This document shows, piece after piece, positions 1,424 to 63,158 of a stretch of DNA of 64,000 bases. Source of the stretch: Chrysophaeum taylorii (lineage: Eukaryota; Sar; Pelagophyceae; Pelagomonadales; Pelagomonadaceae); assembly GCA_029834535.1 (NCBI GenBank), contig JAQMWT010000681.1, positions 26,209-90,208 on the forward strand, read 5' to 3'. The notes under the pieces are model-generated. The model saw only the letters and a program-made list of their open reading frames with translations, had not been told where the DNA came from and did not search any database. Made by a program: the position numbers and the translations under genes. The stretch's first letter is position 1. Every line of letters starts with the position of its first letter.

Positions 1424-3104
1424 GGACCTGCTATCCAAGCATGCCTCCTTGGTTTGGATACCCATCACCTACACCTTTGTCGTCGTCTACTTTGATGGCG
1501 CTGGAGGATCAACGTTGGGTATCCGGCGATGCAACGAGCTATATGGCAGTTCATTTCGCATTGTCTTGGCTTTGGATGCTTGTCCTCAAGCCCGAGCCAC
1601 CTTTGAGCTCAATTTCCCGAAGATTCCCTATGTTTAGCATGAATAGGGGCCGGTTGGCAGCCGGAACGTTCGCAGTGGGACGGGGTATGGCCGCGGGGGG
1701 CAGACGGAAGGTTATCGACGAGTTGGTTGTCAGTCACATCGCGGTCTCCTCGTCGCATGGCGACAAGCTTGATGATCACTCTCCGCCGACCCACCTTTCG
1801 GCGCCCCTCGTCTACAGGCACGTGATTCCGGACTGGCTCCTGTCGGTCCGGCCTGGCTCCCATGCTCGGGAGAGGTCGGAAGTTAGTTAGTTAGTTAGGG
1901 GGAATCTCATCGTTGTACATGCGACTTGGTGTTGTCGTATTTACATTCAGATTTTTGGAAGCATTCTTATTTTCACGCAAGTCCGCCGTGTATCTATGGG
2001 TCGACTGCCAATTTGCACTACAGGGACGCACGCAAGGGTGCTACTATTACTTCTTGGGTCCTGCGTCATTTCCGCAACGCGCCTTATGTAATTGGACGAT
2101 GGACGCTTGAGCAGGAACCATCAGTGATCCCTTTCGTGCATCACCAATTTTATGTGCCGCGCATTGTCGATTTTTATAGTATTACACCCGAATTGCTGTG
2201 CTCGCGCACGCGCCTACTTGCCTGCAATGTTCGCTTGGAACTGCCGTTATTATCGCGTGTACCACCGAATTTATGGGACCGTTTTGGGCCAGAGTTGGGA
2301 TTTACAGGTGGTCACCCGCTCATTGTAGTGAACAGTTTCTCATCTACGCGCCCGGCTATCGGCCCTGCCTGCACGGTGACGCGCAATAAGCTCCACCTAG
2401 GACCTCATTTCTCGAACACCCGTCCACTCAAGTTTCAGATGCACCAGGAAATTATGACCGTCCCTGCTACGTGGCAATGGGGTGAGAAAGTTTCAGAGAC
2501 AGCAGCTATGAAGATGCTTGGCAGTATGGTGCCACCCGCGACTATGACGCGGATCGCGCTAGCAGTGCACAATTCGTTTGGCCCTTCACTTCGAAATTTG
2601 GGTAAGTTGCGGAAAATTGCGACGACTACGATAGCCCAGCCCGATCACCATATTCTACGGTTTTCACCTTTTGCTGTCGAGTCGCGCATTCCAACGCTCG
2701 ACCCTGCCACTCGAAGTGTGTCATGAATTTCGCCCGATGAACTCTACTCTCCTGCGAGTCCTGCACCATCAGCTGCTGCCCCCACCACCCCGCCACCACC
2801 TTCGGTTACATCGCCTTGGACGGCTCAGTCTTTTGCAAGGGGCACCGTCGCCACTGCAGTTATGCAGAGCAATCAAGCCAACAACCAGCCCTCCGCAACT
2901 GCTGAAGAAGAAGGCACCGCGAAGGAGCGACCTACGTATTTTAATAAGTACGACGTTCCGTGGGCGGACGCGCCTCACGACGAGCATGGTCAACCTTTAC
3001 CGGTGATGCCTCCTCATTTAGCGGATCAGGAGAGCATGCAGGTCATCCCTCCGACCGTCGCGCAGGTCGAAGAGGTGATGACTGAGTTGGGTATTACAGA
3101 GCTA
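1401..3104 (+). pseudogene. C5-cytosine-methyltransferase-like gene of element A1, SINE-disrupted
   Basis: The N-terminal piece (1401-1637) holds SAM-binding motif I as FDGAGG (1491-1508) and the motif II acid in ALDACP. A SINE-like repeat follows, then the same frame class resumes near 1902. Motif IV reads SPPCIYGS (catalytic Cys codon 1989-1991; the usual PCQ is PCI), motif VI reads LEQEP (Glu codon 2109), motif VIII reads SRTRLLA (about 2200-2220) and motif X reads GSMVPP (about 2520-2537), all in canonical order. Cys-to-Glu spacing is 40 codons, close to bacterial C5 enzymes. A target-recognition stretch lies between motifs VIII and IX. An in-frame TGA at 2724-2726 is followed by another 120 open codons, Pro-rich and then acidic, until a Helitron-like unit cuts the frame at 3105. 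C5-MTases transfer a methyl group from S-adenosylmethionine to cytosine C5. The loss of PCQ and ENV makes activity uncertain, and the gene is broken by the SINE and the TGA. Confidence 0.75.
1649..1898 (+). mobile_element. SINE-like repeat S1, 5'-truncated, (TTAG)n tail
   Basis: About 250 bp nearly identical to the inverted copy at 4112-4477 and to part of the copies at 6830-7157 and 57137-57270. It ends in a TTAG microsatellite tail (1881-1898). The 5' part present in the two longest copies is missing, which fits 5' truncation during target-primed reverse transcription. The flanks share only a short G-run, so I cannot define a target duplication for this copy. It sits between motifs II and IV of the methyltransferase-like gene. 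Confidence 0.7.
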
Positions 3105-18440: not shown

Positions 18441-20447
18441 CTAGAGGGAGCCCGTGATGAACACGGCGTTAGACATTCGAGTCGTTAATGGTAGTAAGAG
18501 ACTAAGAAAAGAAGGGCTAGGGGTCACTAGTCTAGGGTTAGGAGCACTGAACACCCCTTCGAGTGAAGCTATGGTGTACGTATGTGCACGTGGCTCACTG
18601 GCATATATGTCCCAGTGATTTCGTTCGCTGACCATGTAATGACGGAGGGCTTCCGAGTCATACAGGTCGGTGAGGAGCAGGTTCGGTGGGGTCTCCAGGA
18701 ACGGAGGCAAGTCAGCGCACGAAGTAGCGAGGTAAGAACCCTCGTCTTTATGTGTGATGATGTCTTTTTGTTCATTGTAGTCCACGTTTACCAGGCACCG
18801 TGCGAGTCGTGGGAAATCCACGGTGGACAGGAGCTTCGAGAAGAAGTCTGCCACATTGGCCTTACTGGGACACCAGAAACAGCGTATGCGACGTGGGTGA
18901 CCATTATCGCCCTGGTAATCGCGAATTCGGAAAAAGCGAATGTCGATATGCTTGGTCCGAGGCGTGGATTTCGGATGATTGGCTGTTGATGCAGCTCCCT
19001 CATTGTCAATCAGCAGCGGTATAGCGGGGACCTCGTGACAGGTAGGAAACCCAAACATGAAGGGGACTGATTCCATGAGTGTGTGGAATCATACTGCTTC
19101 ATCCTCGGTGGTCGCTGCGGCAATGATCTCTGCGTGTAGTGTTGACTTGGCCGTAATGGTTAGTCTCTTGGATGACCATGACACTAGACATCCGAACACG
19201 TATACACGGCAACCAGTCGTCGATCGCAGGCGATAATTTTGTGGGTCTGTCTTCGCTAAAGGCGAGGGGCAGCGCGAGATGTTCTTTAGTTCGGGATACT
19301 TGGCGGACAGCAGCTTCACGATGTCGGATGACAAAGCTGAGCCGTCTGCTTTGTAGACCAAGCCATGGTCTGGATTTGTGTGTAGATACCTGAGCGTCAC
19401 TTCTAACCAAACTACAGGTAGGCGTTCGGGCGAGTGCATCCCTTTGCAAGCACGGTTCAAGATGGTGGTGATGTCCGGTCTGACCGTGATACTCAGGTAG
19501 ATGAGAGAGCCACACACTGTTTGAAATGAATCCCGAATTTTTGCTTGCAGGGGGGTCAGCGGTACGTGGTTCTTCTTGGACAGGTCCTTAAAATCGGCGT
19601 TGTGCGGGATGCGCTTATGCGAGAGTTGTTGCCCCAAATTGAGTTTGGAGAGGCGTTCTTTGACTTTGTGTCCTGCACTCGTTGTGAACACCCCCTTGAC
19701 CGGATCATAGGTACACTTGAGACCTAGAAACGATTTAACGGCTTCTACCCACTTAACGCTGTCTCCGAATTTGTTGAAGAGCGCGTCTTTGACTTTTTTG
19801 ATGAGCGCGGTGTCTGTGCCTGTTATGAGCAGGCCATCGGCAAAGGCAGGGATTGCACACCACTGGTCCGTACTAGGGTCGTGTTTCGTGAACAGTGTTG
19901 CGTCATTCCTGCTGCATGTGAAGCCGAGGTCGGTCATGAACTTGTTCAGATGTTTTGAGAAAAGGGCGGGTGACGACTGGAGTCCATAGAGGGCTTTGAT
20001 CAGTCGGAAGCCGATCTTGCCTTTTGGATTCATCTGCCGAACTTTCTCAGTGATCTCTGGCTTTACTTGTATGCCCTTGGGCAGGTCCACCCAGATAGGC
20101 CTGTCGATGAGGCTTTGAATGAACGCCTGTGGGACATCACAGTGATGCACAGGTAGCCGATGGTGCGTGGCGACTGCGATCAGTGTGCGACCAGTGGCTA
20201 GCATTGTCGTGGGTGAGTAGACGCTGTAGAAGTCGAGTCCTACTCGGGCCAGGAAGCCTTTTACCACACATCTGGCCTTGTGCTTCAGGTAAGCACCGTT
20301 TTCAGTTTTGACCTTGAGAACAAGACGTGTAGGGAGAGCGGATCTGCCTTCGGGGACGAGAGATAGGCGGATGACGCCTTTGTCTGTGATGCCATCAAAT
20401 TCTTTTGTGATACCTTCCAGGTGCTTGCGCTTCTCGTCATTGGGCAT
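18441..20447 (-). pseudogene. Outer copia reverse transcriptase and RNase H, active sites altered
   Basis: The 452-residue frame 19089-20447 begins at a Met just before the copia RT core. It has KARCVVKGFLARVGLDFYSVYS, motif A HHCDVPQAFIQS (catalytic Asp kept), then FADGLLITGTD where copia elements have YVDDLLIT: the second Asp is Gly. RNase H follows: the first catalytic region reads RCPSPLAKTDPQNYRLRS against FTDASFADRSDPRLRSN in the inner element, so that Asp is lost, while HAEIIAA and LIDNEGAAST keep the later acidic residues. The frame then shifts and continues to 18441 with KHIDIRFFRIRDYQGDN and ANVADFFSKLL, the conserved copia C-terminus, plus about 100 extra residues. Copia RT and RNase H copy the RNA into cDNA in cytoplasmic particles; the replaced Asp residues argue that this copy cannot. 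Confidence 0.8.
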
Positions 20448-20480
20448 TCTCTTTGGCTCTAATATCCGGTCAGGCGAATA

Positions 20481-20755: not shown

Positions 20756-20760
20756 GTATA
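20756..20760. other. Target-site duplication GTATA (left)
   Basis: GTATA immediately before the 5' LTR of the inner copia, matched by GTATA at 30200-30204 after the 3' LTR. Five base pairs is the usual copia duplication. Confidence 0.9.
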
Positions 20761-20957
20761 TAGAGATAGAAAATCCGAATTAGCGTTAGTACCCCCTATT
20801 CTAGGGCTAGTTCCCTTAACTTTATCACCTTTTGATTCAAGAAAACGCTGTGTTATTCACACCGGCTGTCCTCGTTCCAGGAGTCAGATTCGAGGACAGA
20901 CTACCACTGTTCTCGCGCTCTGCTGAAGGGTAACACAGTTGAAATTGCTGTTCTCTA
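20761..20957 (+). repeat. 5' LTR of inner copia
   Basis: 197 bp, begins TAGAGATAG and ends GTTCTCTA, so the ends form a 6-bp inverted repeat TAGAGA/TCTCTA instead of the usual TG/CA. It matches the 3' LTR with four substitutions. No clear TATA box. Confidence 0.95.
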
Positions 20958-20963
20958 GGTATT

Positions 20964-20978
20964 TGGCACCAGACCCGG
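20964..20978 (+). promoter_or_regulatory. Primer-binding site
   Basis: TGGCACCAGACCCGG, six bases after the LTR. The complement, CCGGGTCTGGTGCCA, looks like the 3' end of a tRNA including CCA with discriminator G. I cannot say which tRNA. It would prime minus-strand cDNA synthesis. Confidence 0.75.
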
Positions 20979-21042
20979 TATCAGCAGAGCCTCAGGATTT
21001 CAATACGAGTTCCGCTCACTGACGTTCCTGAACCCAAGCAAA

Positions 21043-23201
21043 ATGCCAACCAATCAAGAACTCCAAAAGGAGATGCGAGAACAAGAAGCTCGCTTAGAAG
21101 CAAGGCATCAAAAAGAGATGCAAGACCAAGAAGCTCGCTTGATGGCACAATTCAATGCTCAATTAAGCGCGCTGGCCGCCCAAGTGCAAGCAACGCAAGC
21201 ACCACCACCTGCCGTCGCTGCTGCGGCTCCACCCCCCCCTCCAGCTCAACAAGATCCCAAGACCAAAGCTAACACTTTTAGTGACCCACCTAGCGCCGTT
21301 CTCAAGTCAATGGACTCGGCTCAAGTCACGCCCCAAATGCTTTCGTTTCGTGTCATGCAGTTGTTCGTTGAACATCTGATGCCTGAAACAGGCATAACCC
21401 AATATTTTTTGCAGGGCTTCTACACGTGGGAATCCGTCTTGCGCGGATCTAATGACCTCGCTGACGCTCTTCTCGGCCACTGCATCAAAGAATACGACAA
21501 AGATCCCGACAACCACTCTACCGCCAGGAACACGCGAGATTCCCAAGCCCGTTACGTCTACTACAAAGGCGTCTACCGCAAGTTCGGCAAACACTTATTG
21601 GAGAACGTATACGAGCCAAAGCTCCAAGAACTTGAAGATCAAGACAAGGACCCGACCGATATGACAACAGGCAAGTTGTATCCGATCACCCAACCTCATC
21701 TCCAAGGAAAAGAAGCCGACTTCATCGTATACCTCCGCGAGACCGTGCACCCCCTGTTTCGCCGTTTCCTACATGCCGGTAGCGACTCCGTCAAGCACCC
21801 GGCATACGACGAAATCGATGCACTCGGATCTTCCCATCCGATAGGACTCGAATTTGTGCTCCAAGCTCGCCTAGCACTCGACAAGCACACGGGCCAGAAC
21901 CACGTCCACCATGCCCATTACGTATATAATGCCTTCCTGGACACGCTGTTCAACCCGGAGATCCACGAGCCTGCGCACTATATTGAATACATGCGTCATG
22001 TCCAGCAGCAACTGCGCCAGATTACAAACGATGCTACTCTCCAACTTTCCGACCACAAGATTCTCGAGGTTTCCACCAACTGCTTCGCTTTAAGTACCCT
22101 CCAAGTTTGCCTGACACCCGCGCCCCAACACACGTCAGGGGCTTCGCGCGTCTTGCTAACTGTCTGCGCACTCCCAACGACTCGCTGTTACTCGACGAAG
22201 ACAAGGAAGCCATCAACCACCTTCCCAAGCTCATCGCTCGCATCACAGTCATCTCCACTTTTGAGCGCAACTTTTGGGCTCACCTCAAGCCTCACCCAAC
22301 TCTCAACTTCAAGCCTTTGCGCTTCGTCACTGACTTTGGTCGTCTGCCGACTAAAGACAAAGACAATCCACGTTTTCGCTCCCGCCGTCATGGTCTCCAC
22401 TTCGCCGAAGACGATGATGACAACTCTCCCTCTGAAGATGAAATCCCTCCGGACCCCACTGAAGACACCGACCCTGTTGCTGTTTTTCTCACCGAGGCCG
22501 ACCTCGATCAAGATGACGACAACGATCTCATTCAACATCTACACGCCTATCGAAAGAAACAGGCTACACGACATCCCAAGAACCCCCCCCCAAAAAAAAA
22601 GGCTCACAATCCTCGCTCTCCGTCGTACTATGACATCAATGACAGTCCTAAGCCCAAAGCCACCCCTGTCACCCCACCGAAGAACAAGCACCGTCCCCGC
22701 GCTCCTCCTGTCACCCCCGACAAACGCGAGCACCCGCATCTTCGCAAGGTCGACTTTCCAACTCAACCTCATCCACCTAAACCATCTACTCCTGACCAGC
22801 GATTCAAGGTCCCCCTTCGTGAAGTCCGTCGCAAGCTCCAAACCATACGGAATCTCAGCCAAGCCGGTCGCCAACATACGTCCAGCTCCGAGCGCATGAG
22901 CAAGCTAATCAACCTCATCACCACCATCTCCGACGAGATACTTCTCTCCGAAGCCGATAACGATGCCGCAGAATTTCTTCAGGTGCTATCGTCCGATCCT
23001 CCGGAAGATCCACCTGATGAGGGCGAAACAGAGGAAAAAGATGACCAAGGCCATCTCGGTTTCTATGATGACCACGGACACCTGAGCCTCTACGACGACA
23101 CCATCCCCGAAGTCCACGATGAGGATGATTCCGCCGAAGATTACGCACAACGTCACAGTGACTACATGCGTGCTCTCCACCAGAGTCAGCTTTTTCGCTG
23201 A
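21043..23201 (+). pseudogene. Gag of inner copia (one frameshift)
   Basis: ATG at 21043 follows the leader. Residues 1-50 are a coiled coil (QKEMREQEARLEARHQKEM), then Pro/Ala-rich, then an alpha-helical capsid-like part (FRVMQLFVEHLMPETGITQY; GVYRKFGKHLLENVYEPKL; YNAFLDTLFNPEIHEPAHY). The frame is lost near 22090, and sense continues in the frame that runs from about 22090 to 23201 (FARLANCLRTPNDSLLL, then an acidic and a Lys/Pro-rich region with PPPKKKAHNPRSPSYY, then SERMSKLINLITTISDEILL and an acidic tail). There is no CCHC zinc knuckle; the basic Pro-rich part may bind RNA instead. The stop TGA (23199-23201) overlaps the next ATG as TGATG. The same helical pattern is seen in the outer gag (35440-37276). 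Confidence 0.75.
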
Positions 23202-25357
23202 TGGTTGCCGACGACGCCTGTGCCGCCAACCACATCTTACTCAATCAGGCACCAAGCCTCACGATGACGAATTTCCCGACATCATCAACCATCTCACCCA
23301 GAGTCGCAGATTTTCTTTGTGCAACTTACACTCCAGGCAAGACCTCAAAGAAGACTAACTCGCTGCACGGATGCAATGGACCCGGCACTGAAACTTCATT
23401 GATTGACGGTGGCGCATCTTTTTGCTTCACACGCACAATTCGACACTTTGTTCCCGAGTCCATACGCCGGATTCCCGAACACACCATACGCATGGGAAGA
23501 GGCACCTTGACCAGCCATTTCATCGGTGTTAAACCGTTGTACTTGCAGGCCGCAGGTCTCTCCTCAAAGGACGTCAAAGAATCCACCGGTTACGCTTTAT
23601 ATCTCGTATTTCTGGTCGTCCCGCAATTCCGAAAAGGTCTGCAGGTTATCGCGACATCTCAGCTTAAAGCTCTGAACGTCCAAGCAACCGACCCGCCATT
23701 GCCGCACGAACCATACCTCTACGAGCTTATGAACACGTCGACCGCGGATCCCCACGACTATAAGACGCTTATAGGAAAAACAGCTATAGTTCTCGCCAAT
23801 CGCCAAACAAATGGCCTGTTGTCCCTGCCGTCTCATCCAAAGCAAACATTCCGCGCTGTGGTTAGTTTCCACACTGGAACACGAATGTCACTCAAGGATG
23901 AAATCGCAAACATCACACAGCATGTTGCAAAGACACGCTCGCAATCTCACATGTTAGATTTCGCTAAGCTCCAGCATCACTCCATCTTTTTATCTGACCT
24001 CATTCGCCTCCCGCGTACCGTCGGCCAATACGCGTTTACTACCACAGCGGATCTATCTGTGCAAGCACAACCCCCTCCGCTAAAAACAGCTATTATCGCA
24101 GGTGGACTTCACCAAGAAGGTTTTACCTCTTTTCGCAAACGCTTCGACAACCGTATTACTGTCGTGGTCACCTGCGAAATTCACCCTATTATGCGCGCTC
24201 GCGCGCAACAACTCTTCCCGCATGCTCAGCATTATGCGGACCTCAGGAAGCTCAATGCCGCTTTACAAACCGGCAAAATCAGACTACCTCATTTTGACTT
24301 AGCGGTTTTCACACTGCCATGTCAACATTTGAGTGTAATGAAAGAATATGACGGCTACGCCACTCCGGTGACAGCCGACCTTTTTGTCACAGAACAAATC
24401 CGCTTTGTTCGCTGCACGCTCCCGACCTACGCCATTGTCGAGAACGTCCCTCCAAACCCCCGAACTCATCACGAGTACACCCAACTCGCCAAATGCTATC
24501 AGCGCTTAGGCTACTTCCGACACTCCGGTGTCTACAATGCCTCCGCTTTTGGTGACGTCATCAGCAAGACCCGCTATCTCGCTGTCTATGCCCGGCACCC
24601 GCTCACCGAGTACAACCTCGAGAAAAGCGCTTCTCCATGGTTAACATCTCCTCCGAGCATGGTTCCCTTTCTGGGCCCCAGCAACACTATCCCCGACGAT
24701 CTCTGGATCGCCAACCCCGCCCTTCGTGGCACCGTGCCCCGCTCCACCTTGACCTACTACCAACACAAGGCCACTTTTTCCTACGCGCCCGCCAACGCCT
24801 CTAAACTCTCGATTTCCGAAAATGCCCGCATCTGCCAAATGCTCGCACGCTTCACCAAGCCCTTCACGGATCTCGGTCTAGATGCCGACGGCACCCCCTA
24901 CGCCACCATGGCGTCCATTTCCCACCTTCTGGTTTTCACATTACTGCACAACCATTTGTCGCAACACCCCACTCTCGCCGCTTGGAACACCATCCGCTGT
25001 TTTTATGCCTCAGAGTCTCAATGTGCTTGCCATTTGGATGGAGGCATCACCCGCACCGCCGCTACTGCCGTCGCATGTAGCTACTTCCCGCGCGCCTCCC
25101 TCACCCTACATTCCAGCCCCCCTCAGATATTGGACTGTTCCCATCAACCCGCAGTCTTCTCCCCAACGCAGGCTGTTCCCTGGATGTTCCCAAGGGCACC
25201 GCCTTTCTGGTCGTCGCCTACACCACCTCCTTGGCCGCCGCTCACCGCTGCTCGCGCCCGTCCACTTGGGTCCACTAAATATGATATATTTGAATATGAA
25301 TCGTTCGCATCCTGGCTTTGCCGCGATCGACCCACGAGGACGAATTACTCTCGATGA
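23201..25357 (+). CDS. Protease plus N-terminal two thirds of C5-MTase, inner copia
   Basis: 718-residue frame starting at the ATG that overlaps the gag stop. Residues 67-75, LIDGGASFCF, are the retropepsin-type active site (D-G-G-A-S for D-T/S-G-A-S). Residues about 100-270 are the usual copia PR-to-IN spacer with short conserved blocks. From residue about 292 a C5-cytosine methyltransferase domain begins: IIAGGLHQEGF (diverged motif I), TCEIHP (motif II acid), FTLPCQHLS (motif IV, catalytic Cys 374), AIVENVPPNP (motif VI, Glu 414), DVISKTRYLAVYA (motif VIII), then a target-recognition region. The useful frame ends near 25100-25300, where a frameshift moves motifs IX and X to another frame. 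PCQ, ENV and the 40-residue spacing are those of active enzymes. It would methylate DNA, plausibly the element's own cDNA (inference). Confidence 0.85.
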   Translation: MVADDACAANHILLNQAPSLTMTNFPTSSTISPRVADFLCATYTPGKTSKKTNSLHGCNGPGTETSLIDGGASFCFTRTIRHFVPESIRRIPEHTIRMGRGTLTSHFIGVKPLYLQAAGLSSKDVKESTGYALYLVFLVVPQFRKGLQVIATSQLKALNVQATDPPLPHEPYLYELMNTSTADPHDYKTLIGKTAIVLANRQTNGLLSLPSHPKQTFRAVVSFHTGTRMSLKDEIANITQHVAKTRSQSHMLDFAKLQHHSIFLSDLIRLPRTVGQYAFTTTADLSVQAQPPPLKTAIIAGGLHQEGFTSFRKRFDNRITVVVTCEIHPIMRARAQQLFPHAQHYADLRKLNAALQTGKIRLPHFDLAVFTLPCQHLSVMKEYDGYATPVTADLFVTEQIRFVRCTLPTYAIVENVPPNPRTHHEYTQLAKCYQRLGYFRHSGVYNASAFGDVISKTRYLAVYARHPLTEYNLEKSASPWLTSPPSMVPFLGPSNTIPDDLWIANPALRGTVPRSTLTYYQHKATFSYAPANASKLSISENARICQMLARFTKPFTDLGLDADGTPYATMASISHLLVFTLLHNHLSQHPTLAAWNTIRCFYASESQCACHLDGGITRTAATAVACSYFPRASLTLHSSPPQILDCSHQPAVFSPTQAVPWMFPRAPPFWSSPTPPPWPPLTAARARPLGSTKYDIFEYESFASWLCRDRPTRTNYSR

Positions 25358-25811
25358 CCCCAAGAGACTCATAATGTCCAAAGCACGTCCCACTTACGCG
25401 GACTATGTCGGCCACATCGGAGACACGCTTCAGAAAAGCACCAAGTGTTACTCGGTCACTGGCTCGTACACAACCAACACGAGCTACTCCAACGCCTTGC
25501 TGCTGACCTCTCCAGACCACATCCGCTATGCGACCCTCAACGAAATCGCAAAGTTTGGACACCACTCGGACCCGGAACTGCTCCGTCTGTTCCAACAGCA
25601 CCCGCCGTACTTCGCGTTTAAGGCACTGGCCAACGCCGTCCCGCACAATATGCTGCAGGCAAAGTACAGCGCTGTTCTCGCACTCCACGAATCGCACCAC
25701 CACGTGAACTTTCACATCGAATGGGCAACAATACGCACATCGAATGGGCAACAATACGCAATGGCATCCCCAGCCCAGGAGACATCACCCAGTTTGCAGA
25801 CTTCTTCATGA
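25260..25811 (+). pseudogene. C5-MTase C-terminal part (motifs IX and X), inner copia
   Basis: The frame shifted relative to the upstream ORF carries the C-terminal half of the methyltransferase: RGRITLDDPKRLI, then IRYATLNEIAKFGHHSDPELL (motif IX, the R-x-L-T-x-x-E pattern) and FKALANAVPHNMLQAKYSAVL (motif X, GNAVPP as ANAVPH; NAVP at 25632-25643). The order and spacing after motif VIII are right for a C5-MTase. A 23-bp tandem duplication at about 25713-25758 (CACATCGAATGGGCAACAAT and three more bases, twice) pushes the frame by two bases and explains why the integrase continues in a different frame. Confidence 0.8.
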
Positions 25812-27118
25812 GCATCACCAGCCGTCTCTTAGCCGAGGTGGACCTCAACCTCACCTCCCTCTTCATTGCCATAGCAGATGCTCACCATTATGCAATCCGC
25901 AAACCAAGCAAATCGAAAAATATCGAGACGCTTCTTGCAGAGGCAACCGTTGCTAAAATCCGAGTCGACAAGCGACCCAGCCCACCTAGCGCTTCGACTG
26001 CCGCTCTGCCTCCCTTGCACAAGCCCGGCACCATTCAGCACGCCAAAAGAGTGCATTTGGTCACTCGCTGGCACCGCATACACCACCAGCAACCAGAGAT
26101 TCTTCGCCGCACGATTGCCGCCAATGTAACGAATCTCCGCCCAGGTGATGATCGGTATCTGCAAGACTGCAGTGAATGCAAGCGCTGCCAATCGCATGTA
26201 AGCTTCAGTCACAAGAACAATTCCTGGTCACAGGATGAACTGGCCTATGCTCCTGGCCAACACCTCCACATGGATGTATCATACCCGAGCATCAGCAAGT
26301 GCTACGGCGGATTTCGCTACATCATGCACTTTGTGTGTATTATCTCAGCACACAAATGGGTCTATTTCCTGCGGAAATTAGACGCACAGGATGTTCTGGC
26401 CGGCATCCTCTATGTGGTCAATGTGATTAAGGTCGAATTCGATGTCAATGTGAAAATCATCTCGTCTGATGCATTCTCGACTTTCCTCTCCGAAGCTTTC
26501 CACCCGCTCAAGGTGCAACTTGGCATCCAGTTTCAAATCCTTGGTCACCACCTCCACCAGCGGAATTTCGCGGAAAACATAATCAAGGAAAACACCCGAG
26601 GCATTGTAGTTCGCCTCCTCGACCTTCGCAGTGTACGCATCGAAGGAAAGTCTATTGCCGCTGAGTATTATCACCCAATTGCGCTACTGCATAAGATCCA
26701 AGCCGACAACCAGCGCTCTCATGGACTGCCCTCGCGCACAAACATGGCATGCACCGTCCCCCGGCGCATCATGTCACCCATGGCACCGCTCTTGAAGCTC
26801 CTTCCCTTTGGTGAGCCTGCCACCTTTGTCTACCCTCAAAGTCACAAGCTGGAACCCTCCAGCGTCTCCGCCTCCTACTTCCATAGTAACAATTATCTCC
26901 CGAACCTCCCCGGCACGGACCGATTTATCCGTGATGTTCACAGCTCTATCCTGCTTGTACATCAAGGGCGATATGGAAAAATCGTCACCTCTAACGACTT
27001 TCACGTTGACGCATACATGCCAGTCAACCGCAACAAGGAGATCGAACGGATCAAAGCACTCGCACAGATCCCAACAGAGGCACGACAAGAGGACCCGCTA
27101 CCAGCTATAAGCGAATAG
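25721..27118 (+). CDS. Integrase of inner copia
   Basis: Frame open for 465 codons; the biological protein continues from the MTase C-terminus. HHCC zinc finger: RWHRIHHQQPEIL, then DCSECKRC. Catalytic DDE: HMDVSYP, IISSDAFSTF and HHLHQRNFAENIIKEN give D, D and E at copia-like spacing. A C-terminal region follows (LLKLLPFGEPATFVYPQSHK is the conserved fold after the core). Integrase inserts cDNA in the host DNA, here making 5-bp duplications. The frame ends in a TAG followed by CAA and then ATG, and the same frame continues with the RT ORF, so either one nonsense change or a leaky stop separates them. Confidence 0.85.
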   Translation: MGNNTHIEWATIRNGIPSPGDITQFADFFMSITSRLLAEVDLNLTSLFIAIADAHHYAIRKPSKSKNIETLLAEATVAKIRVDKRPSPPSASTAALPPLHKPGTIQHAKRVHLVTRWHRIHHQQPEILRRTIAANVTNLRPGDDRYLQDCSECKRCQSHVSFSHKNNSWSQDELAYAPGQHLHMDVSYPSISKCYGGFRYIMHFVCIISAHKWVYFLRKLDAQDVLAGILYVVNVIKVEFDVNVKIISSDAFSTFLSEAFHPLKVQLGIQFQILGHHLHQRNFAENIIKENTRGIVVRLLDLRSVRIEGKSIAAEYYHPIALLHKIQADNQRSHGLPSRTNMACTVPRRIMSPMAPLLKLLPFGEPATFVYPQSHKLEPSSVSASYFHSNNYLPNLPGTDRFIRDVHSSILLVHQGRYGKIVTSNDFHVDAYMPVNRNKEIERIKALAQIPTEARQEDPLPAISE

Positions 27119-27121
27119 CAA

Positions 27122-29086
27122 ATGCCGGAAGCTAGACAGGAATCGACAGATGAGGGCGAGACTCAAGATGACGACCATGAGGATAAACCGGAAGATGACG
27201 ACGAGCACAAAGAACCGGATCCAACTCCCGCTGCCGATCCAATTCCCGTCAGCGACGAGACACCCGAACAGAATTTTTCGTTCCTCGACCGGCCGCCCCC
27301 GCCGGATGGTAGCATTCCGATGCCCAAACGAAATGACCGATTAGAGGTTGTTCTCGACGATTCAGGTTTTACTCCAGTTCTCGTGCATCGCAACCAAAGC
27401 GACAAACTCAAAGCAGATCTCAAGGACGAGCGCGGATTCCGCATCCCTAAAGATCAACTCTATATCGTGAAACGTGTCGACGATGGAAAACTTTTCACCA
27501 GACGCATTATCGCTTCAGAGTATGGTCGCAACTGGAAATACCAGCAGGAGCAATCCACGGCTCGCGCCACAGCCAACATGTCCAGCACATTGATGTTCCT
27601 CATCAGTGTCAGCGCTCTGCACCAGGGCCAAGCTGTTAGCATCGCATCTGATCTCAACATTAGAAGAGATGCTAAGCCGCCAAATGATGTCCCGAAAGGA
27701 TGTCTCCTAGCAAATACCACACAAGACTATGGTATCATGGGCGGCACTGCACTGGATCTGCAGAGAGAAACCGACGCAGACCTCGTGTGTGTCGACTTCC
27801 CAAGGCAGCCGTACCATTCATTTGTATCGGTCGACCACCTGGAAAACGACAACTCTGTTCTCGAGAACTATGTGTGCCACGACGAACTGTCACCGGCAGA
27901 GTACTATGCGCGTCAATGGAACCAAGAATTCTGTTGTATGGGCTCCTCCCTTATGTGGGACATCTCCGTGCATCAGCACTACCACTTAGCTTCTCGTTAC
28001 AGGCATGCCTTCATGCATGATTCTGGCGAACTCGGACACCTCTTCCTAAGTCAAAGTGATCCGAATCAAGATATTCCCCAAGAAGCCATGGACTATGACT
28101 TGCAGCACATCGATCACGTCGTGTTGCAACTCGTGACTGCTGAAGATATTGTCTATGAGCTTGAGAAGATTGTCGAACTCAAAGGACTCAGCGAAGAAGA
28201 TAAGTTAAAGCATATCGCTTCGATTCGCAAAGAAATAGAAGACCTGTGTTCCAGCGGTGTATCTGAGCTTGAACCTTTACCGCCAGACCGTTCGTCTATC
28301 TCGACGAAACTCGTGCTGAATATCAAGTATTTTGCTGGTGGCACCCCAGACCGCTACAAAGCTCGTATAGTTGCCCGAGGTTTCCTGGCACGTGTAGGCA
28401 TTGACTTTTATGCCACATCCTCACCAACCGCAATGCTCGCCACCAACCGGTTATTGCTCGCCATCGCTGTGAAGCACAAACTCCCGGTCGCACACGCGGA
28501 CATTCCGCAGGCATTTATCCAATCGGCACTCGATCGCCCGGTGTGGATTGACTTACCTCGAGGAATACGTGTCTCGCAAAATCTTATCCAGTAGACACAG
28601 AAAAACCACCCAGAGTCGAAGCTCGCTCTCCGACTCGTCAAGGCTCGCTATGGCCTCGAACAGTCAGCTTTGTTGTGGAATATCAAACTCGACTCGTTTC
28701 TTCGACAACATGAGTTCGAACGCTCACAAGTCGACACTTGCCTCTATATAATTTGAGATCGATATATCAACAAATGTGTTCAACTATCCGTTTCGGTCGA
28801 TGACCTATTGATCACTGGTACCAACACTGCCAAAATTACATCTCTTCGCACTGCTCTGGAGAAGGAATATGGCAAAGGTACATGGCATGACAACATCAGA
28901 TCCTTCCTTGGTATCGATGTCCACTACAATGTCTCCGCTGGTCATCTCACTATGAATGTAGCAGCGAAGATCACCAAGATGCTTGCTGAGCATAAGCTCA
29001 ACCTACATAATATGGACGTCCCCTATTCGGACATCCTCATTCAAAAACCATCTGTAAACTTATCTCAGACTTGGCTCCTACCTTAG
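27122..29086 (+). pseudogene. Reverse transcriptase of inner copia (in-frame stops)
   Basis: The frame from 27122 runs through 29086 with stops at 28592 (TAG), about 28754 (TGA) and 29083 (TAG). An acidic linker (residues 1-60) and a chromo-like region precede the RT: YKARIVARGFLARVGIDF, motif A AHADIPQAFIQS, LALRLVKARYGLEQSALLW after the first stop, then SVSVDDLLITGTN (SVDD, both catalytic Asp kept) and FLGIDVHYNVSAGHLTM. The RT copies genomic RNA to cDNA. Three stops in one domain mean that this copy does not make full-length enzyme unless stops are suppressed. Confidence 0.85.
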
Positions 29087-29960
29087 ACGTATTACGCCAA
29101 CATCTTCCTCACTACTGTGGCACTAGCATTTACTTGTCTGTCACATGTCGCCTGACATCACCACTTTGTGCAACAAATGCTGCAAGGGCATGCACAACCC
29201 AGATCAGACCCATCTTCTGCACTTGTATGTTTTACTTCGCTACTTAAAGGGTACTCCGAATGATTCACTCGACTATTCATCCGACAGCCCCTCTATTACG
29301 CCCTTTATTCAGCATCTGATCAGCCGCTATTCTGAACTGCATCACCTTCGTTCACCCATTATTTGTTTTACTGATGCAAGTTTTGCTGACCGTTCTGACC
29401 CTCGCTTGCGATCCAATTCTGGTGCATGTATCTTCGTCTTTGGCAGTCTCGTATTCTGGTCTAGCAAACGCCAAACTCTTACTGCCAAAAGCACCATGGA
29501 AGCTGAACTCATCGCCGCCAGCGCAGCCGCCGATGAATGTCACTGGTTTCACCAGCTATTCTCCTCCCACCCTTATTTATTTTCGTGTGATCAAGCTCAC
29601 GCTATTCCCCTGCTTATTGATAACGCTAGCGCATTACATGTCGCTAATCACCCTAAAGTCAGTGCTCCTTCTCGTCATATCAATTTACGAGAATTTCGCA
29701 TTCGTGACTACCAAGCCAACTCGGTCATTCGTCCTCTCTGGTGTCCTACTCACTACCAGGTCGCTGATCATTTTTCGAAGCTCCTACCACGCAATTTATT
29801 TCACAAGTTCAAAAACGCCTACGGTGTTCACTCAACCTCCTCTTCACCGCCATCTCGTCAAGTTGCTCTTTCAGTTACTCTTTCTGCTACTCTTCCACCG
29901 TACGACTCTGTCCATAACACTCTCTATGTTCTTGTCGATGGTAAGACGCTTCCTGCTTAG
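29087..29960 (+). pseudogene. RNase H of inner copia
   Basis: After a frameshift around 29090-29145 the frame carries the end of the RT connection (MSPDITTLCNKCCKGMHNP) and RNase H: ICFTDASFADRSDPRLRSN, STMEAELIAASAAADECHW, LLIDNASALHVANHPKVS and HINLREFRIRDYQ, with all acidic residues in place. It ends 40 bp before the 3' LTR. The fragment is recognisable copia RNase H with a complete active site. Confidence 0.85.
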
Positions 29961-30002
29961 TTTGATCCAGATTTCGCTCACCGAGTTCGATCTGTGAGGG
30001 CG

Positions 30003-30199
30003 TAGAGATAGAAAATCCGAATTAGGGTTAGTACCCCCTATTCTAGGGCTAGTTCCCTTAACTTTAGCACCTTTTGATTCAAGAAAACGCTGTGTTATTC
30101 ACACCGGCTGTCCTCGTTCCAGGAGACAGATTCGAGGACAGACTACCACTGTTCTCACGCTCTGCTGAAGGGTAACACAGTTGAAATTGCTGTTCTCTA
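30003..30199 (+). repeat. 3' LTR of inner copia
   Basis: 197 bp, same ends as the 5' LTR (TAGAGATAG...GTTCTCTA). The preceding GTGAGGGCG is the only purine-rich tract and is the polypurine-tract candidate. Target duplication GTATA follows at 30200-30204. Confidence 0.95.
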
Positions 30200-30204
30200 G
30201 TATA

Positions 30205-31589: not shown

Positions 31590-32606
31590 CTATATGCCGC
31601 GCACGGTCTTGGGTTCGCGCTTGTTGCGATGGTGTGGGTTGATCAACACCCACGAGCCAAAGGGGTAGAGCTGGGAGCTCATTTCCTCTTGTCGTGGGGA
31701 CAGCACCTGGTGGGGCGTGTGGTCAACATGTTCACGACGGGAAAGGAGTCGCGACCCTGTATTGTTGTGCACGGTGCTGTAGAACAAGCTCGAGAACACC
31801 CAGTAAGTTGACGGGTCGATTTGGTGACCCTCGACCGTCTTGCCGCTCAGGCCGTCCTGTGCCATGGTGGCGCGTTTGGTGAGACGACCCATGAAATGCT
31901 CTGCTGGACTGCCATAGTGCAGCTGATATCGTCCAAGCGTCTCAATTTGCAGGGAGAGCTCGGTCTTCATGTTGTTCAGCTCGGTGGCCTGGACCTGTTT
32001 GGCCGCGTCAGCGAGCACTACTCGCACTCGTATGTCGTACCTGATTTTCAACAGGTTCACACCACAGAGGATTGCAGCGAGGGCGGTCTTGGCGTCTTGG
32101 CGGTTAGCGGGGTGTACAACGCCAAAGTCGCATTTCACACACACCATCACGTAGAGGTGAGGGTAATGACGGTACACCGAGTGGATCGTCGACTCGGCGA
32201 CACCCAGAGCGAGAACTCTGCCAAAGATAAAGGAAAGCTCATTTGGAGTGTACGTCTCGAGATTTTTGGTCCACGGTAGGTTGTCCAGATACTTGGCCAT
32301 CCTGTCGTCTGGGACTAGAAATCTCAGGTACCGAGAATCACCGGGCTGTAGGTTGCAGACGTTGGGGTTGGCTCGGATGTTGCGTTCCATCATATCAGGT
32401 GAGTGCAGGAAGATGGACCTGTACCAACTGACTTTGAAAAGCTTGGCGGGAAAGCCATGATGCGCTGGAGGCAACTCGGGGGGGCATGCTGACGTCGGGA
32501 TGGAGTCCGCTGTTTTGGTCTTTGCTGCTGCCGTTGAGAACCGAACCGCCTTGATCCTGTAATCAGGCTTTTGCTTAGGTCGCCGCTTCTTTTGATGCTT
32601 AACCAT
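31590..32606 (-). CDS. Outer copia integrase-like protein, zinc finger lost
   Basis: 338 residues. It aligns by eye over its length with the inner integrase: the PNVCNLQPGDSRYL block equals inner VTNLRPGDDRYL, but the HHCC ligands before and after it are gone (YRSIFLH and FLVPDDRMA instead of RWHRIHH and DCSECKRC). The first catalytic Asp appears replaced by Glu (VAESTIHSVY against HMDVSYP). The second Asp (VVLADAAKQV) and the Glu (GSPAEHFMGRL) remain. The C-terminal QLYPFGSWVLINPHH matches inner LLPFGEPATFVYPQSH. The frame is uninterrupted, unusual for a copy with so many changed key residues. The start is the first Met; a basic patch (KHQKKRRPKQKP) follows. Confidence 0.7.
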   Translation of the reverse strand: MVKHQKKRRPKQKPDYRIKAVRFSTAAAKTKTADSIPTSACPPELPPAHHGFPAKLFKVSWYRSIFLHSPDMMERNIRANPNVCNLQPGDSRYLRFLVPDDRMAKYLDNLPWTKNLETYTPNELSFIFGRVLALGVAESTIHSVYRHYPHLYVMVCVKCDFGVVHPANRQDAKTALAAILCGVNLLKIRYDIRVRVVLADAAKQVQATELNNMKTELSLQIETLGRYQLHYGSPAEHFMGRLTKRATMAQDGLSGKTVEGHQIDPSTYWVFSSLFYSTVHNNTGSRLLSRREHVDHTPHQVLSPRQEEMSSQLYPFGSWVLINPHHRNKREPKTVRGI

Positions 32607-32639
32607 GGCAGCTAGCGCAGAGTGGCTGTGAGAGCCCTA

Positions 32640-35250
32640 AATGGCGATCCGGACTGATCTGCACATGCCGCTGTGACGTCGACACTGCATAGCAGTGTGT
32701 CTGCGTCTTGGACCTTGGACACCGGTGGGTTGCGCGGTCGCAATGTCAGTGATATCACATGACGCGAAGTGTTTAGTCGCTACACGATGGAGCGACAAGT
32801 AAAGCGCCAAGAGCTGCGGGGGGGCGATCATGGATGCCTGCTCCTTGAAGACCTGTCTGGGTGGCATCTTACGCCATCGCTCGTGCAGTGCTGCGTCGTC
32901 CGGAGCGCAGATACGTGCCGTGCGGTTTCCTCAGGTGTGACGTAGCGGTATTGATGAGAGCTCATGCGTACCAATATAATATATATATATATCTGCCGTC
33001 GGAGGTGAGCGTACGTGCGGGTCCAGAAGGCAGGCAGGTGCGTAGACCTAGCGTGGTCTGCTTCTGGGGTAGCTCGTAATGCCCGTCACGATGAGCCAGA
33101 GACATGCGCGTCTGGGGATACAGCGTGTTGCGTGGGTCGGGAACGGCGATGGTCTCCTGTTGGTAGTTGAGCGAGAAAGCCTGGGGGTTCTGCAAGTTGA
33201 TCAGTTCTGCTACTCGGAGACTAAGTTCTGATGAGTGCCTGTCCATCTCGGGGAGCATTGGTCGACATGCAAATGCAGCAACAAGGTGGCCTTGATGTGC
33301 ATCGAATCCTGATACGGCATGACCACATAGCTTAAATGGCGCACCATAGGCATTTCGCGTGTGTCGGCCAGTGGGCTTTCGTTGCTGCTCGAGGGTCGGT
33401 TGTCCGCCTGTGAAGAAGCCGAGAGTAACCAGGGCGTCCGGTCGGAGGTGACTGACTTCCGCGGTGGTGAACTCGAGCGGATCGTGCGAGGCGCGTACAA
33501 CGAAGAAACCAGCGTTGATTCCAGCGTCCGAGAACGTTTCCCGGAGTAATATCCACGTTTTCTGAGCTAGATGCGAGAGCCGGCACGATGCTTGCATTAT
33601 TGCAGGCAGAGAGCGTAAGTCCTTGTCCAGTCCCAGGGTGATGGTGACTGTGGACCGTCTCTGTTGTTTGGTTTCACCCCCTGTGTCAGAAGCGTGGGGC
33701 GCGTGACACCGCAAGAGAGGAATAGTGTGGGAGACCAAATGGTTGGCATGTGTGATGCGACGGCATCATCTGGGTATCGATGGGTCCTCTGGGCTGCGAA
33801 GAACGCGTGGCGCGGTGGGGTCAGAGTCGAAATCCACGGCAAGCGGGCATCTCGGAACGCGAAGCCGGCGCGGGGAATGACCAGCGAGCGGGGAACAGCG
33901 GGACCCGAGAGAAGGAAATTTTGCTGCGGCGTTATCGAGGAGGACAGTCCCGACATGCGGGGAAGGTCCAGAGGTGAAAGCGGAGCTGTGCTGTGAATCA
34001 CGAACCATCGAATCTTAGAGACGGGGGCGCCCACGGAAGCAGCGTCGCAAATGGCTGCAGAGGAATAGAAACCAAAATTGCGGGCTTGAGCGAGGACGTG
34101 TTGGTGGTGCCCATGATTCGTCTCTGAGGGAGGGGTCATCTCTTCGAGAATGCACGTGGCATGGAGGGCCAGGGCGATGCGAAATCGCAAATCGGAGCGG
34201 AACATCCAGGCCAAGCGGGCGTCAGGATAACTGTTGAGATCCTTGAGTGTCGACTCCGAGGTGCATTCGGCGGAGTACATGACAACGTCAGCAGCGACTT
34301 TGAGCTGACCACAAGTCACCAGACGCGGAATGAGTGTAGCATCGGAGCACGTGACAATGTCTGGGCCAAAACGCTGACGAGCCAGTTGCAAGAGGGATGG
34401 TTGTTTTTCGCATACGAACACAACGCGGAAGTTGGCGGCGAAGATGCGGTTGTTGCGGAACAGAGAAGAGCCTTCAGTCGAGACACCGGTGCACACGAGC
34501 GCGAGGGTGCGGGGCTGAGGCGTGCCGCGAAACTCGCCGGAGGCCGACATGGAGAGTATCATGTGCAGCGCGCCCGAGGACTGTTGCGTCAGTATAACGG
34601 CGGGTAAGTCCGAGCGGGCCAGTTTGCGCAGATTGGGGTCGACGGCTTGAATGTGGCCGAGATCACGAGACAGCGAAAAGGTGTCGTGCGTGAGGAGGGA
34701 CCGCGGGGTCTTAAACTCGTGAGAGTGGCGCAAGGGGAGCTGGATGAGCCCGTTGAACGTTTTCTCACACGTGAAGACAGCGGCGGCGGCGTCGATTTCG
34801 CGATAGTCCAGCGGGAGAGCGGCAAGTCCGGGCGACTTGGGGGTCCCGTATGGAACGTGCGGAAGGGGCGCGTCGAAAATGATCGCGTTGAACAAGTGAC
34901 CAACTGCCGATGAGAGGAGAAAGAGATCCTCTCGAAAGTCATCCAACAGGAGGGCCGGCGCGAGATACACAAAGCCTGTGTCGGGATTGCGAGCGTCTGC
35001 AACCACGAGTAAGGAAAGTGCAATCTTGGTGGCCATGACCGACGTGGGGCCCTGTGAGATCTTGACAGGGGTAACGTCGACGTGGGACCCCTCGATGACG
35101 AGAGGTGACGACGAGTGGCCGAAGTTGAAGGTGGCACCGTATCCGAAATGGCGACGAGCTTTGTCTTGGGAGCGCGGTCGTGCTTAAGCGACACAGGGTC
35201 GGCGGAGGATGAGGAGAAGCACGAAAAGGGTATGCCGTTGAGGGACATTT
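32640..35250 (-). pseudogene. Outer copia protease-like and C5-MTase-like region
   Basis: The main frame 33597-35036 (open up to about 35200) starts with a protease-like block where FGYGATFNFG takes the place of inner IDGGASFCF, so the catalytic Asp is missing. The MTase-like domain follows: LALVCTGVSTEGSSLF (motif I position), VFVCEKQP (motif II acid), YSAECTSES (motif IV; Cys kept at 34265, Pro and Gln lost), ILEEMTPPSE (motif VI; Glu codon at 34142), GAPVSKIRWFVIHS (motif VIII). Cys-Glu spacing is 41 codons. In shifted frames further left, RYVTPEETARHVSAL (about 32930) and QVFKEQASMIAPPQLL (about 32840) match motifs IX and X of the inner copy. Between them, 32962-33738 is an open frame for the target-recognition region. 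Probably no methyltransferase activity; a DNA- or SAM-binding role cannot be excluded. Confidence 0.65.
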
Positions 35251-60640: not shown

Positions 60641-61581
60641 TTAGGTATCTTCAATCCTGTAAAGGATTGTCGTGAGAGGCATGATGCATACCGAGTAGAG
60701 AACGAAAGTGGAGAACTCAGCTGCAAGTGGTTTTGTAAAACCATCCGCCACGTTCAGCTTGCCGGGAACATGATGGACTCGTATTTTCTGAAGCGATATG
60801 TACTCACGAATCTTAAACCATCTAGTCGACAGTGCCTTGGATCGAGAGGACCCATCTGGGTTATTAGAGGTGTGAACAGCGGCAGCATTGTCAGACAAAG
60901 AGGTAGGCTTCTGATGAAGCGCATATCTTCAGCAATTGGGTTGTCATTGTCATCGAAGTCAACAGGGTCAGCGGTGTTCTCACCATTAGCATTGTTGACG
61001 TAGAAGGTGGGGTTGACGACAAAGGAGAGTTCCAACAGCAGCTTGCGTAGCCAAACAGCTTCATCAGCACAAATACTGAGGGCAATCAACTCAGCTTCGT
61101 GAGTTGAGCAGGAGACAATCGGTTGAAGTTTGCTTTTCCAACCAATAAGGCAGTTGAAAAGATAGAAGACAAACCCGGTGGTAGATTTCCTATCTTCCTG
61201 TGCTAAGGAAGGGGCATTGTCAGCGTCAACCATGGCAACTAAGGGGTCAAACTGTCCAGTAGATACATCCTGTGGTTGGTAGTCGACCACAGTGGATAGA
61301 TCAATTCGATTAGCGGAGACAGTGCGAAGGTGAGCTTCAATGGCATTACCTTTAGGGTGAAACCAGAGGCGAAGTGAGCGGTTTTCCGGCTTCTTGAGGT
61401 AGCGAAGCAAATGCTCTAGCATTTGGACGTGAACATATGTGGGTGCATGCATACCACGCGAACATCTGCCCAAGGCTTGCGAGAAGTCAGGTCTGCAGGC
61501 AACTTGCATGAACACCAGCTTGCCAAGGAGTGGCAAAGTGCGAGTTGATGTACAACTCTGTTTCAGTGCTGGGAGTGCCAT
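60641..61581 (-). pseudogene. RNase H of element 4 (two frames)
   Basis: The frame 60754-61581 follows the RT frame after a one-base shift near 61510. FSQALGRCSRGMHAPTYVHV is the connection, PLVAMVDADNAPSLAQEDRK carries the first Asp, and SCSTHEAELIALSICADEAV carries the Glu. After about 60900 sense is in the frame 60641-60898: SDNAAAVHTSNNP (Asp), RWFKIREYISLQKIRVHHVP, GKLNVADGFTKPLA, the conserved copia C-terminus. A stretch YVNNANGENTADPVDFDDND between the two may be an insertion. The residue set is complete, the frame is not. Confidence 0.8.
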
Positions 61582-62425
61582 CTTTATACTTGAAGGACGA
61601 TGACATAGGATATTTAAGCGGGGTCAGTTGCTGCAAGACTGGGTGATCAGCGAAGAGTTCATCCAGCTTGGCTTGCACATCCAGAGAAATGGAGCCGTCA
61701 GATGTGCGACACACACGCATGCCTAGGAGGGTATGGACAGGTTCAAACTGCTCTACAGCATACCGTTTGTGGAGGGCATCCTGTAATTCAGTACGAAGAG
61801 GGTCGTCATTGGACACAATAACAATGTCGTCTACAGACAGACTGCATACGACGAACTTAGCATGTGCGGATACTCGAGCATATAGGCAAGAGTCCGAATG
61901 CAGGCGTTTGTAGCCAAGGCTACGGAAGAAGCCGTCTATCTCTTTGTTCCAAAGGGATGGTGATTGCCGAAGTCCATAAAGTGACTTCAGCAGTTTCGGT
62001 AGACGTCGGCCCTTGTACTTAGCGTCATCGGGGTCGATAAGCTTGATGCCGTCTGGTAATTGAACATAGACATTGGCATCGATGTCAGACTGAACGAAGG
62101 CGTTCGGGACGTCTGCATGGTAGACAGGCAATTGCTTGTATGCTGCAATAGCTAGTAGTACCCGGATTGCGGTCATAGTGGCCATGGGGCTGAAGGTACC
62201 AAAGAAATCGGCGCCAAGAGATGCTAGGAAGCCACGTAGTACGAGGCGAGCCTTGTGCTTAACGTATTTGCCTGCAGAGTCTGCTTTTATCTTCAGCACC
62301 ATCTTGCTGTCAATAGGACGAGAGACACCGTCGGGTAAGGAAAGTTTGAAGCAGCCAAAGCGGATAATGTCGTGGAGTTCCTTGGCGATGGCCTTGAGGT
62401 AGGCGTGCCTGTTTTCAGGCGACAA
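61487..62425 (-). CDS. Reverse transcriptase of element 4
   Basis: 312 residues uninterrupted over the whole copia RT core. FGCFKLSLPDGVSRPIDSKM, KHKARLVLRGFLASLGADF, motif A VYHADVPNAFVQSDIDANVY, LLKSLYGLRQSPSLWNKEID, SLSVDDIVIVSNDD (SVDD catalytic pair) and TLLGMRVCRTSDGSISLDVQ. The frame is open upstream of the Met to about 62515 (VGPDEYKVQEADVSIDEYKL), so the start shown is not the natural polyprotein start. The best preserved RT in the window and a good anchor for phylogeny. Confidence 0.9.
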   Translation of the reverse strand: MSPENRHAYLKAIAKELHDIIRFGCFKLSLPDGVSRPIDSKMVLKIKADSAGKYVKHKARLVLRGFLASLGADFFGTFSPMATMTAIRVLLAIAAYKQLPVYHADVPNAFVQSDIDANVYVQLPDGIKLIDPDDAKYKGRRLPKLLKSLYGLRQSPSLWNKEIDGFFRSLGYKRLHSDSCLYARVSAHAKFVVCSLSVDDIVIVSNDDPLRTELQDALHKRYAVEQFEPVHTLLGMRVCRTSDGSISLDVQAKLDELFADHPVLQQLTPLKYPMSSSFKYKDGTPSTETELYINSHFATPWQAGVHASCLQT

Positions 62426-62520
62426 ACCGTGGAGGCACTTAAGTTTATATTCGTCAATGGAAACGTCCGCTTCTTGGACCTTATATTCGTCAGGACCAAC
62501 AGTGGCTGGTGAATTATAGT

Positions 62521-63158
62521 TTAGCGACGTTGCGGTCGAGGCAGTGTGCGCAACTTCGGGATAAGCGGAAACAGCGTCGGTAGGAGTAGTAGGGCAGATT
62601 CCAGTTGGATATGGATAGTAGGGTCGGTACGTAAGACCTGGGTGATAAACTCTGTAGAGACCAGAAGGTATTCCTCCAAGTCAGCCAGAGATGCAGAAGT
62701 AGCGCCAAACTCGGATGAGTTGTGATCAATAAAGCTGGTCGGCGCCAGGTACGTAAGTGCATATTGTAAGGAAGAAGTGCCGAAGGCAGCAGCGTGTTCA
62801 GTGAACGCAGATAAAAGGGCTGAGGAATAGGGCACGTAGGTGAACCATCAGCAGTTAAAGGTTGCAGCTGGGATGCTGGATGCGCACTTGGCGTGGGCGA
62901 AGTAACCATCGACGTGCGGGTAGCGGGCAAGTAAGTCAGTACGCAACGGGAGAAGAAGACGAGCTAACAACGCATGTTCCCCCTCTGAGCAGATAGCAGA
63001 CCAGAGGATACCACCACGGAGATGAAGGGCGGAGAGGGCGGAGACTTGAACGTAAGAAAGTGGTGGCGAAGATCCCAGCGGAAATCGGCGAGCTTGCCAC
63101 CAGCGGCTTTGTAAGCACCAATAGTAGACGCTTGTAACCGGGCTCGGATAGTTTTCAT
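62521..63158 (-). pseudogene. Integrase-to-RT linker of element 4
   Basis: Several short frames matching the 3a linker: KTIRARLQASTIGAYKAAGG with LADFRWDLRHHFLTF, then AFTEHAAAFGTSSLQYALTY and SSEFGATSASLADLEEYLLV. A region of low constraint between integrase and RT, with two or three frameshifts. Confidence 0.6.

Follow-up and report, generated by a model that had tools for sequence, protein, structure and literature searches.

A window of 64,000 nucleotides from Chrysophaeum taylorii (contig JAQMWT010000681.1, positions 26,209 to 90,208, forward strand) contained a Ty1/Copia retrotransposon with long terminal repeats (LTRs) at 20761-30199, flanked by the target-site duplication (TSD) GTATA and hereafter called element A. 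In its pol region, protease and integrase are separated by a C5-cytosine methyltransferase (MT) domain that extends from 24071 to about 25736. A first-pass annotation had proposed this arrangement, which was borne out by profile matches, predicted fold, sister copies and selection. The domain is real, conserved and under selection, and a substrate and purpose can be proposed for it. The favoured reading, held with moderate confidence, is that a Ty1/Copia lineage acquired a C5-MT and keeps it as a pol domain that would methylate the element's own new cDNA or a fresh insertion. Retrotransposon-borne C5-MTs are already known; judging by sequence, a Copia carrier with a non-DNMT3 enzyme would be a new variant.

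Sequence and fold of the methyltransferase domain

Element A was assigned to Ty1/Copia based on its LTR pair, a 5-base TSD (the flanking GTATA pair) and an integrase upstream of the RVT_2 reverse transcriptase (RT). The pol order, protease, MT, integrase and RVT_2 RT, is that of Copia. MT motifs were located in order along the domain (Table 1). Motifs IV and VI were intact as annotated, with a spacing of 40 codons from the motif IV Cys to the motif VI Glu. For motifs VIII, IX and X, the annotated order was recovered, but motif VIII read ISKTR instead of QxRxR, and motifs IX and X lay in another frame far downstream. Motifs VIII and IX were separated by an unusually long span of about 300 residues, which had no family match in PDB or Pfam. 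The insert after motif VIII was also considered as a candidate 2OG-Fe(II) dioxygenase, an idea dropped since neither PDB nor Pfam supported it.

The Pfam search named in the first-pass annotation as a check gave a match of PF00145 to the open reading frame (ORF) at 23162-25357, with E 2.4e-8 and 34.2 bits, above the cut-off of 22. The match was limited to profile positions 39-165 of 324, covering motifs II-VIII. TIGR00675 matched the same ORF with E 2e-8, but its 34.3 bits remained below the cut-off of 100.65. When nine intact sister domains were scanned singly, seven matched PF00145 and all nine matched PHROG DNA methyltransferase families (best E 8e-12). The single window ORF had no PDB match. 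A PDB search with a profile of 26 sister cores returned 11 matches, comprising ten M.HhaI variants and 8yf3, another C5 enzyme. In tblastn searches against phages, the domain of sister locus L013 retrieved 20 records (best E 3e-6), 11 of them annotated as DNA methyltransferase or methylase, eight as hypothetical and one unannotated. The best sequence matches to the MT core were phage C5-MTs of PHROG 116 and 363 (e.g. BK063680), which are phage genes with a canonical motif I and shared 16-28% identity across the core with L013 or with the window copy. No relative of the MT core was confirmed in the viral and prokaryote collections, each searched with two short peptide patterns.

Structure prediction, likewise proposed as a check, gave a C5-MT fold from an alignment that included known MTs. 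The model of motifs I-VIII reached pLDDT 78.3 and pTM 0.77 from 31 sequences, namely the window copies of element A and of the related family B (see below) and 29 phage MTs. The best 50 of 180 Foldseek matches at E 0.001 or better were all C5-cytosine methyltransferase entries by title, and the entries included DNMT1/MET1, DIM2, M.HaeIII, M.HhaI, DNMT2 and DNMT5. The MT core is predicted to have a Rossmann-type C5-MT fold.

Sister copies and selection

The MT segment was retained in sister copies, the third check named in the first-pass annotation. None of the outcomes that the annotation named as refuting was observed, although the fold model relied on known MTs in its alignment. The genome search with the ORF gave at least 73 matches, some being fragments of one copy, and the search with PF00145 at least 57. 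Merging of the hit lists, including the family B search, left at least 90 places after subtraction of the two genes L001 and L002; MT-bearing places may be more numerous, and the 90 include some not confirmed as family A. A set of 33 distinct copies with partial sequence was compiled. L003, L005 and L008 came via the PF00145 search, the window copy is L009, and the duplicates L004, L006 and L007 were removed. Motif I AGGLHQ and motif IV PCQ were each kept in 32 of the 33 copies. Motif VI had EN in 32 copies and ENV in 30, and motif VIII had SK in all 33 and its last Arg in 32. Motif X ANAVP was present in 22 copies, differed in nine and was not covered in two. The divergence of motif I noted in the first-pass annotation thus extends across the family. 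Since AGGLHQ was nearly invariant, IIAGGLHQEGF is a derived family trait, not decay.

The window copy was broken by frameshifts that spared the key motifs, as annotated. From protease to integrase it aligned to L013 in four pieces, with PCQ and EN present, and gag and RT were also split. Many sister copies bore stops or frameshifts; in at least two, a stop-free frame (1952 and 1868 amino acids) included the MT match as well as the RT match. Among the matches listed, 54 of 87 RT places had an MT upstream; the count took 87 of 91 RT rows, the other four being short extra fragments of places already counted. A spot check of six of the 33 RT places lacking a listed MT revealed MT sequence in five, in one case only residues 429-516 of the reference. 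At RT place C201, no MT was found in the examined stretch. Near another copy, a 552-residue ORF (L068, 446-2101, + strand) weakly resembled the MT together with the span downstream of it (E 2e-8, 22%) and was devoid of the catalytic motifs. This resemblance may reflect composition or a degenerate relative.

Median pairwise ratios of nonsynonymous to synonymous change (dN/dS) were 0.15 for the MT core (518 of 528 pairs), 0.21 for the VIII-IX span (452), 0.18 for motifs IX-X (341), 0.14 for the protease (487), 0.16 for the integrase part (265) and 0.34 for the stretch before the protease (484), values lowered somewhat by the masking of off-frame stretches with a 50% local identity rule. Pairs with less than 60% coverage or a proportion of synonymous differences (pS) below 0.02 were excluded. 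For changes shared between copies, omega was 0.14 in the MT core, 0.16 in the span, 0.12 in motifs IX-X, 0.12 in the protease and 0.11 in the integrase part, calculated regardless of kinship among copies. The MT is therefore maintained by selection to nearly the same degree as the replication enzymes protease and integrase. For private changes, found in one copy, omega was 0.65, 0.63, 0.44, 0.49 and 0.53 in the same order. Values below 1 indicate that some private changes also predate insertion. The two sets of values were read as maintenance of the MT on the transposing lineage and relaxation after insertion.

A passenger or chance resemblance, brought in by a single insertion and now decaying, would fit the broken frame of the window copy and the stops or frameshifts in many sister copies. 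It is extremely improbable in view of the number of genome places, the purifying selection seen in shared changes of the MT core and the significant matches to PF00145 and PHROG profiles.

Element structure and other methyltransferases

Table 1. Features of element A and of further methyltransferase-bearing elements in the window.
Feature	Position	Strand	Basis or remark
TSD GTATA, left	20756-20760	.	left flank ends GTATA
5' LTR (TAGAG...CTCTA)	20761-20957	+	4 differences in 198 bases vs 3' LTR
gag region, two overlapping frames, broken in window copy	20959-23201	+	ORFs 20959-22899 and 21987-23201
Retropepsin-like protease, DGGAS 23405-23419	23399-23600	+	sequence; outer limits by eye
C5-MT core, motifs I-VIII	24071-24646	+	PF00145 E 2.4e-8; predicted fold; Foldseek to C5-MTs
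Motif I-like IIAGGLHQEGF	24092-24124	+	sequence
Motif II TCEIH	24170-24184	+	sequence
Motif IV PCQHLS	24317-24334	+	sequence
Motif VI VENVPP	24437-24454	+	sequence
Motif VIII ISKTRYLAVYA	24560-24592	+	sequence
Long span, motifs VIII to IX, site of target-recognition region	24647-25526	+	frame broken in window copy
MT motifs IX-X, different frame	25527-25736	+	assigned by eye
Motif IX YATLNEIAKF	25527-25556	+	sequence
Motif X LANAVP	25626-25643	+	sequence
Integrase, HHCC zinc finger by eye, rve core 26246-26533	25730-27118	+	PF00665 E 3.1e-4, under Pfam cut-off
RT, first part (RVT_2)	27119-28594	+	PF07727 E 2.6e-16; frame broken downstream
Remainder of RT and RNase H, broken frames	28757-29960	+	ORFs; domains by eye
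3' LTR	30003-30199	+	LTR pair
TSD GTATA, right	30200-30204	.	GTATA after ...CTCTA
Family B RT	19089-20480	-	by eye
Family B integrase	31590-32636	-	by eye; without Pfam match
Family B homologous, diverged MT domain (ECTS, LEEM, SKIR)	33900-34517 (within 33597-35183)	-	similarity to family A
Family C (Ty3/Gypsy) pol piece with different C5-MT (PPC, LEQ, SRTR, LGSMVPP)	1899-2726	+	PF00145 E 0.0019, below cut-off

The LTRs of element A comprised 197 bases, within a detected repeat of 198. Its protease had no match in the Pfam scan of window ORFs, and DGG was retained in 29 of the 33 copies. The ORF stretch 29127-29960 also had no Pfam match. In L013, a single frame ran across the examined part of gag. 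The gag and pol frames of the window copy overlapped at 23162-23205, where TGATGG joins the gag stop to an overlapping pol ATG. This TGATGG followed a run of four or five T in all 11 copies shown (the window copy and ten sister copies), which suggests reinitiation or frameshifting between gag and pol.

Element A is nested in a second, minus-strand Copia element, assigned to family B. The protease-MT stretch of family B shared 22% with that of family A over 433 amino acids (E 5e-24 in a two-sequence BLASTP run with no composition correction), and a genome search with family B recovered family A copies with E down to 4.9e-23. The family B MT domain alone had no Pfam match. At the PCQ site, ECTS was found in four of five distinct aligned places including the window, with EGTS in one, and LEEM was present in all five; L043, L045 and L048 were counted as one place.

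A different C5-MT was present between protease and RT of family C, which belongs to Ty3/Gypsy (RVT_1, RNase H). Family C was very abundant, with at least 146 matching stretches in the genome. Its sister locus L051 matched PF00145 with E 2.8e-8 and also RVT_1. The motifs were FAGAGG (FTGAGG in one of the five copies covering motif I), PPC, SRTR and LGSMVPP. Pooled over six loci, the ratio of nonsynonymous to synonymous differences (pN/pS) was 0.15 in the MT (15 pairs), 0.49 before it (six pairs) and 0.38 after it (15 pairs).

Profile comparison of the Copia and Gypsy MTs, made with very shallow profiles, showed no similarity. In trees of about 160 columns, the Copia families A and B were split from all others with support of 97.1/98 (16 sequences) and 100/100 (33 sequences). 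Family C leaned to a cyanophage enzyme in the 33-sequence tree (92.5/79), but not in the 16-sequence tree. Neither the Copia enzymes nor the family C enzyme grouped clearly with human DNMT3A, the only DNMT3 representative in the two sampled trees. The eukaryotic DNMTs in the trees were few, L001, L002 and this DNMT3A, with no KnitGypsy or SymbioDIRS sequence. Independent capture of the MTs by families A/B and by family C is a reading and not proof because of this thin sampling. L001 and L002 are C5-MT genes outside these elements with nearly full PF00145 profile matches, Dnmt2-like and Dnmt5-like by eye. A third Copia element was detected at window positions 60754-63999 (- strand; RVT_2 E 1.2e-42), with its protease-integrase part seemingly beyond the contig end. 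Elsewhere in the genome, contig C697 encodes a RuBisCO large chain of 488 residues with 7yk5 as its best PDB match; 7yk5 and the entries ranked after it are diatom chains, which points to a red-lineage, probably ochrophyte, algal host.

The accessible text of PMC5890265 describes DNMTs carried by LINE, DIRS and Gypsy elements, namely KnitGypsy-Dnmt3 of Klebsormidium nitens, SymbioDIRS-Dnmt3 and SymbioLINE-Dnmt, and a Symbiodinium Copia without any DNMT domain. Like these systems, element A bears a C5-MT within a retrotransposon coding region in many copies with conserved key residues. Purifying selection on the domain is also common to both, with Ka/Ks below 0.2 reported in that paper. In those systems, DNMT3 or an orphan MT is borne by LTR Gypsy, DIRS and LINE elements, whereas the carrier here is Copia. 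The available part of PMC12344493 reports orphan enzymes as a class that falls into none of the established DNMT groups and, in one sentence, places some DNMT3 members in 'LTR Copia and DIRS' retrotransposons. The 2018 paper cited there reports Gypsy rather than Copia, as far as its accessible text extends, and the MT of element A differs from DNMT3 both by motif (PCQ vs PCN) and by tree. DAM- and DCM-type methylases were described in Ty3/Gypsy and DIRS elements, with Stramenopiles among the hosts (Morozov et al., PMC6338049); 'copia' is absent from the text of that article, and family C may belong to the Gypsy elements it describes. In the brown alga Ectocarpus, the available text of PMC12477816 reports a transposon-encoded ParB-methyltransferase in Sola1, which is a predicted N4C or N6A enzyme of a DNA transposon, in contrast to the retrotransposon C5-MT here. 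No title or abstract on a Copia family with a non-DNMT3 methyltransferase was found in a literature search that left most subscription papers and bioRxiv preprints outside its scope.

Proposed role and significance

According to the favoured reading, a Ty1/Copia lineage would have acquired the C5-MT and retained it as a domain of the pol polyprotein. The element's protease would release the MT, or the MT would stay fused, and it would join the particle or pre-integration complex alongside RT and integrase. Either the newly made cDNA or the recent insertion would have its cytosines methylated there, prior to integration or immediately afterwards, and the sequence context would probably be other than CpG. 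We infer this role, in which the element would methylate cDNA of its own or newly made copies. It is in line with the statement in the accessible text of PMC5890265 that retrotransposon-borne DNMT3s perform de novo CG methylation in yeast.

Several results count against the reading as a whole. Pfam missed two of the nine intact sister domains at E up to 10, and the best PDB profile match was weak, with only E 0.022. The fold model was not independent, with known phage MTs within its alignment, and a model from the two window sequences alone failed (pLDDT 36.7). Motif I has IxGxL in place of FxGxG and motif VIII has IxKxR in place of QxRxR; the canonical forms are general knowledge and are also visible in the aligned phage enzymes. 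CpG depletion was not seen, with observed/expected ratios of 1.04 in element A and 0.98-1.12 in four other window stretches. Neither was an excess of C-to-T changes at CpG (44 of 238 CpG sites vs 156 of 683 C sites elsewhere; p 0.17), tested in columns covered by 15 or more copies of which no more than one differed. SymbioLINE and KnitGypsy were inactive in yeast, a result deemed inconclusive in the available text of PMC5890265.

Among C5-MTs, QxRxR of motif VIII is conserved, not invariant. Its departure here therefore weakens the case for activity more than that for family membership. With motifs I and VIII both off canon, S-adenosylmethionine binding, already questioned in the first-pass annotation on account of motif I, and activity of the MT are putative. 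The CpG ratio near 1 and the missing C-to-T excess make long-lasting CpG methylation of element A copies unlikely, unless deaminations were repaired.

The divergence of motifs I and VIII would also suit a domain that lost catalysis and was kept for DNA binding or base flipping, e.g. in cDNA protection or integration steering, and the related family B retains ECT for PCQ and EEM for ENV across copies. Such a loss is quite unlikely, as a mere binding domain would not need the near-invariant PCQ and EN of family A, and family B still has the Cys in four and the Glu in all five of its distinct aligned places. Alternatively, an active C5-MT could act in a DNMT2-like manner on RNA, either the element's genomic RNA or a tRNA primer. 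The DNA without CpG footprint and the reworked cofactor motif and motif VIII are compatible with an RNA substrate. This support is not direct, the active retrotransposon DNMTs in the accessible text of PMC5890265 act on DNA and DNA enzymes ranked first in Foldseek, with DNMT2 only from rank 29, leaving an RNA substrate distinctly improbable. A broader proposal, doubtful but still to be considered, is that in this one algal genome two superfamilies of LTR retrotransposons each took up a C5-MT of prokaryote or phage type in separate events. The Copia enzyme would then have been reworked in its cofactor motif, motif VIII and long span before motif IX for non-CpG action, possibly on its own RNA or an RNA/cDNA hybrid during reverse transcription.

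Methylation of its own cDNA or new copies, as favoured here, would invert the usual relation, in which transposons are targets and not makers of cytosine methylation. A Copia lineage that keeps an MT through many transpositions adds an LTR carrier of this trait. The presence of a Copia MT beside a different Gypsy MT suggests that the trait was repeatedly useful to elements. Why a retrotransposon would methylate becomes a testable question in this 71 Mb genome.
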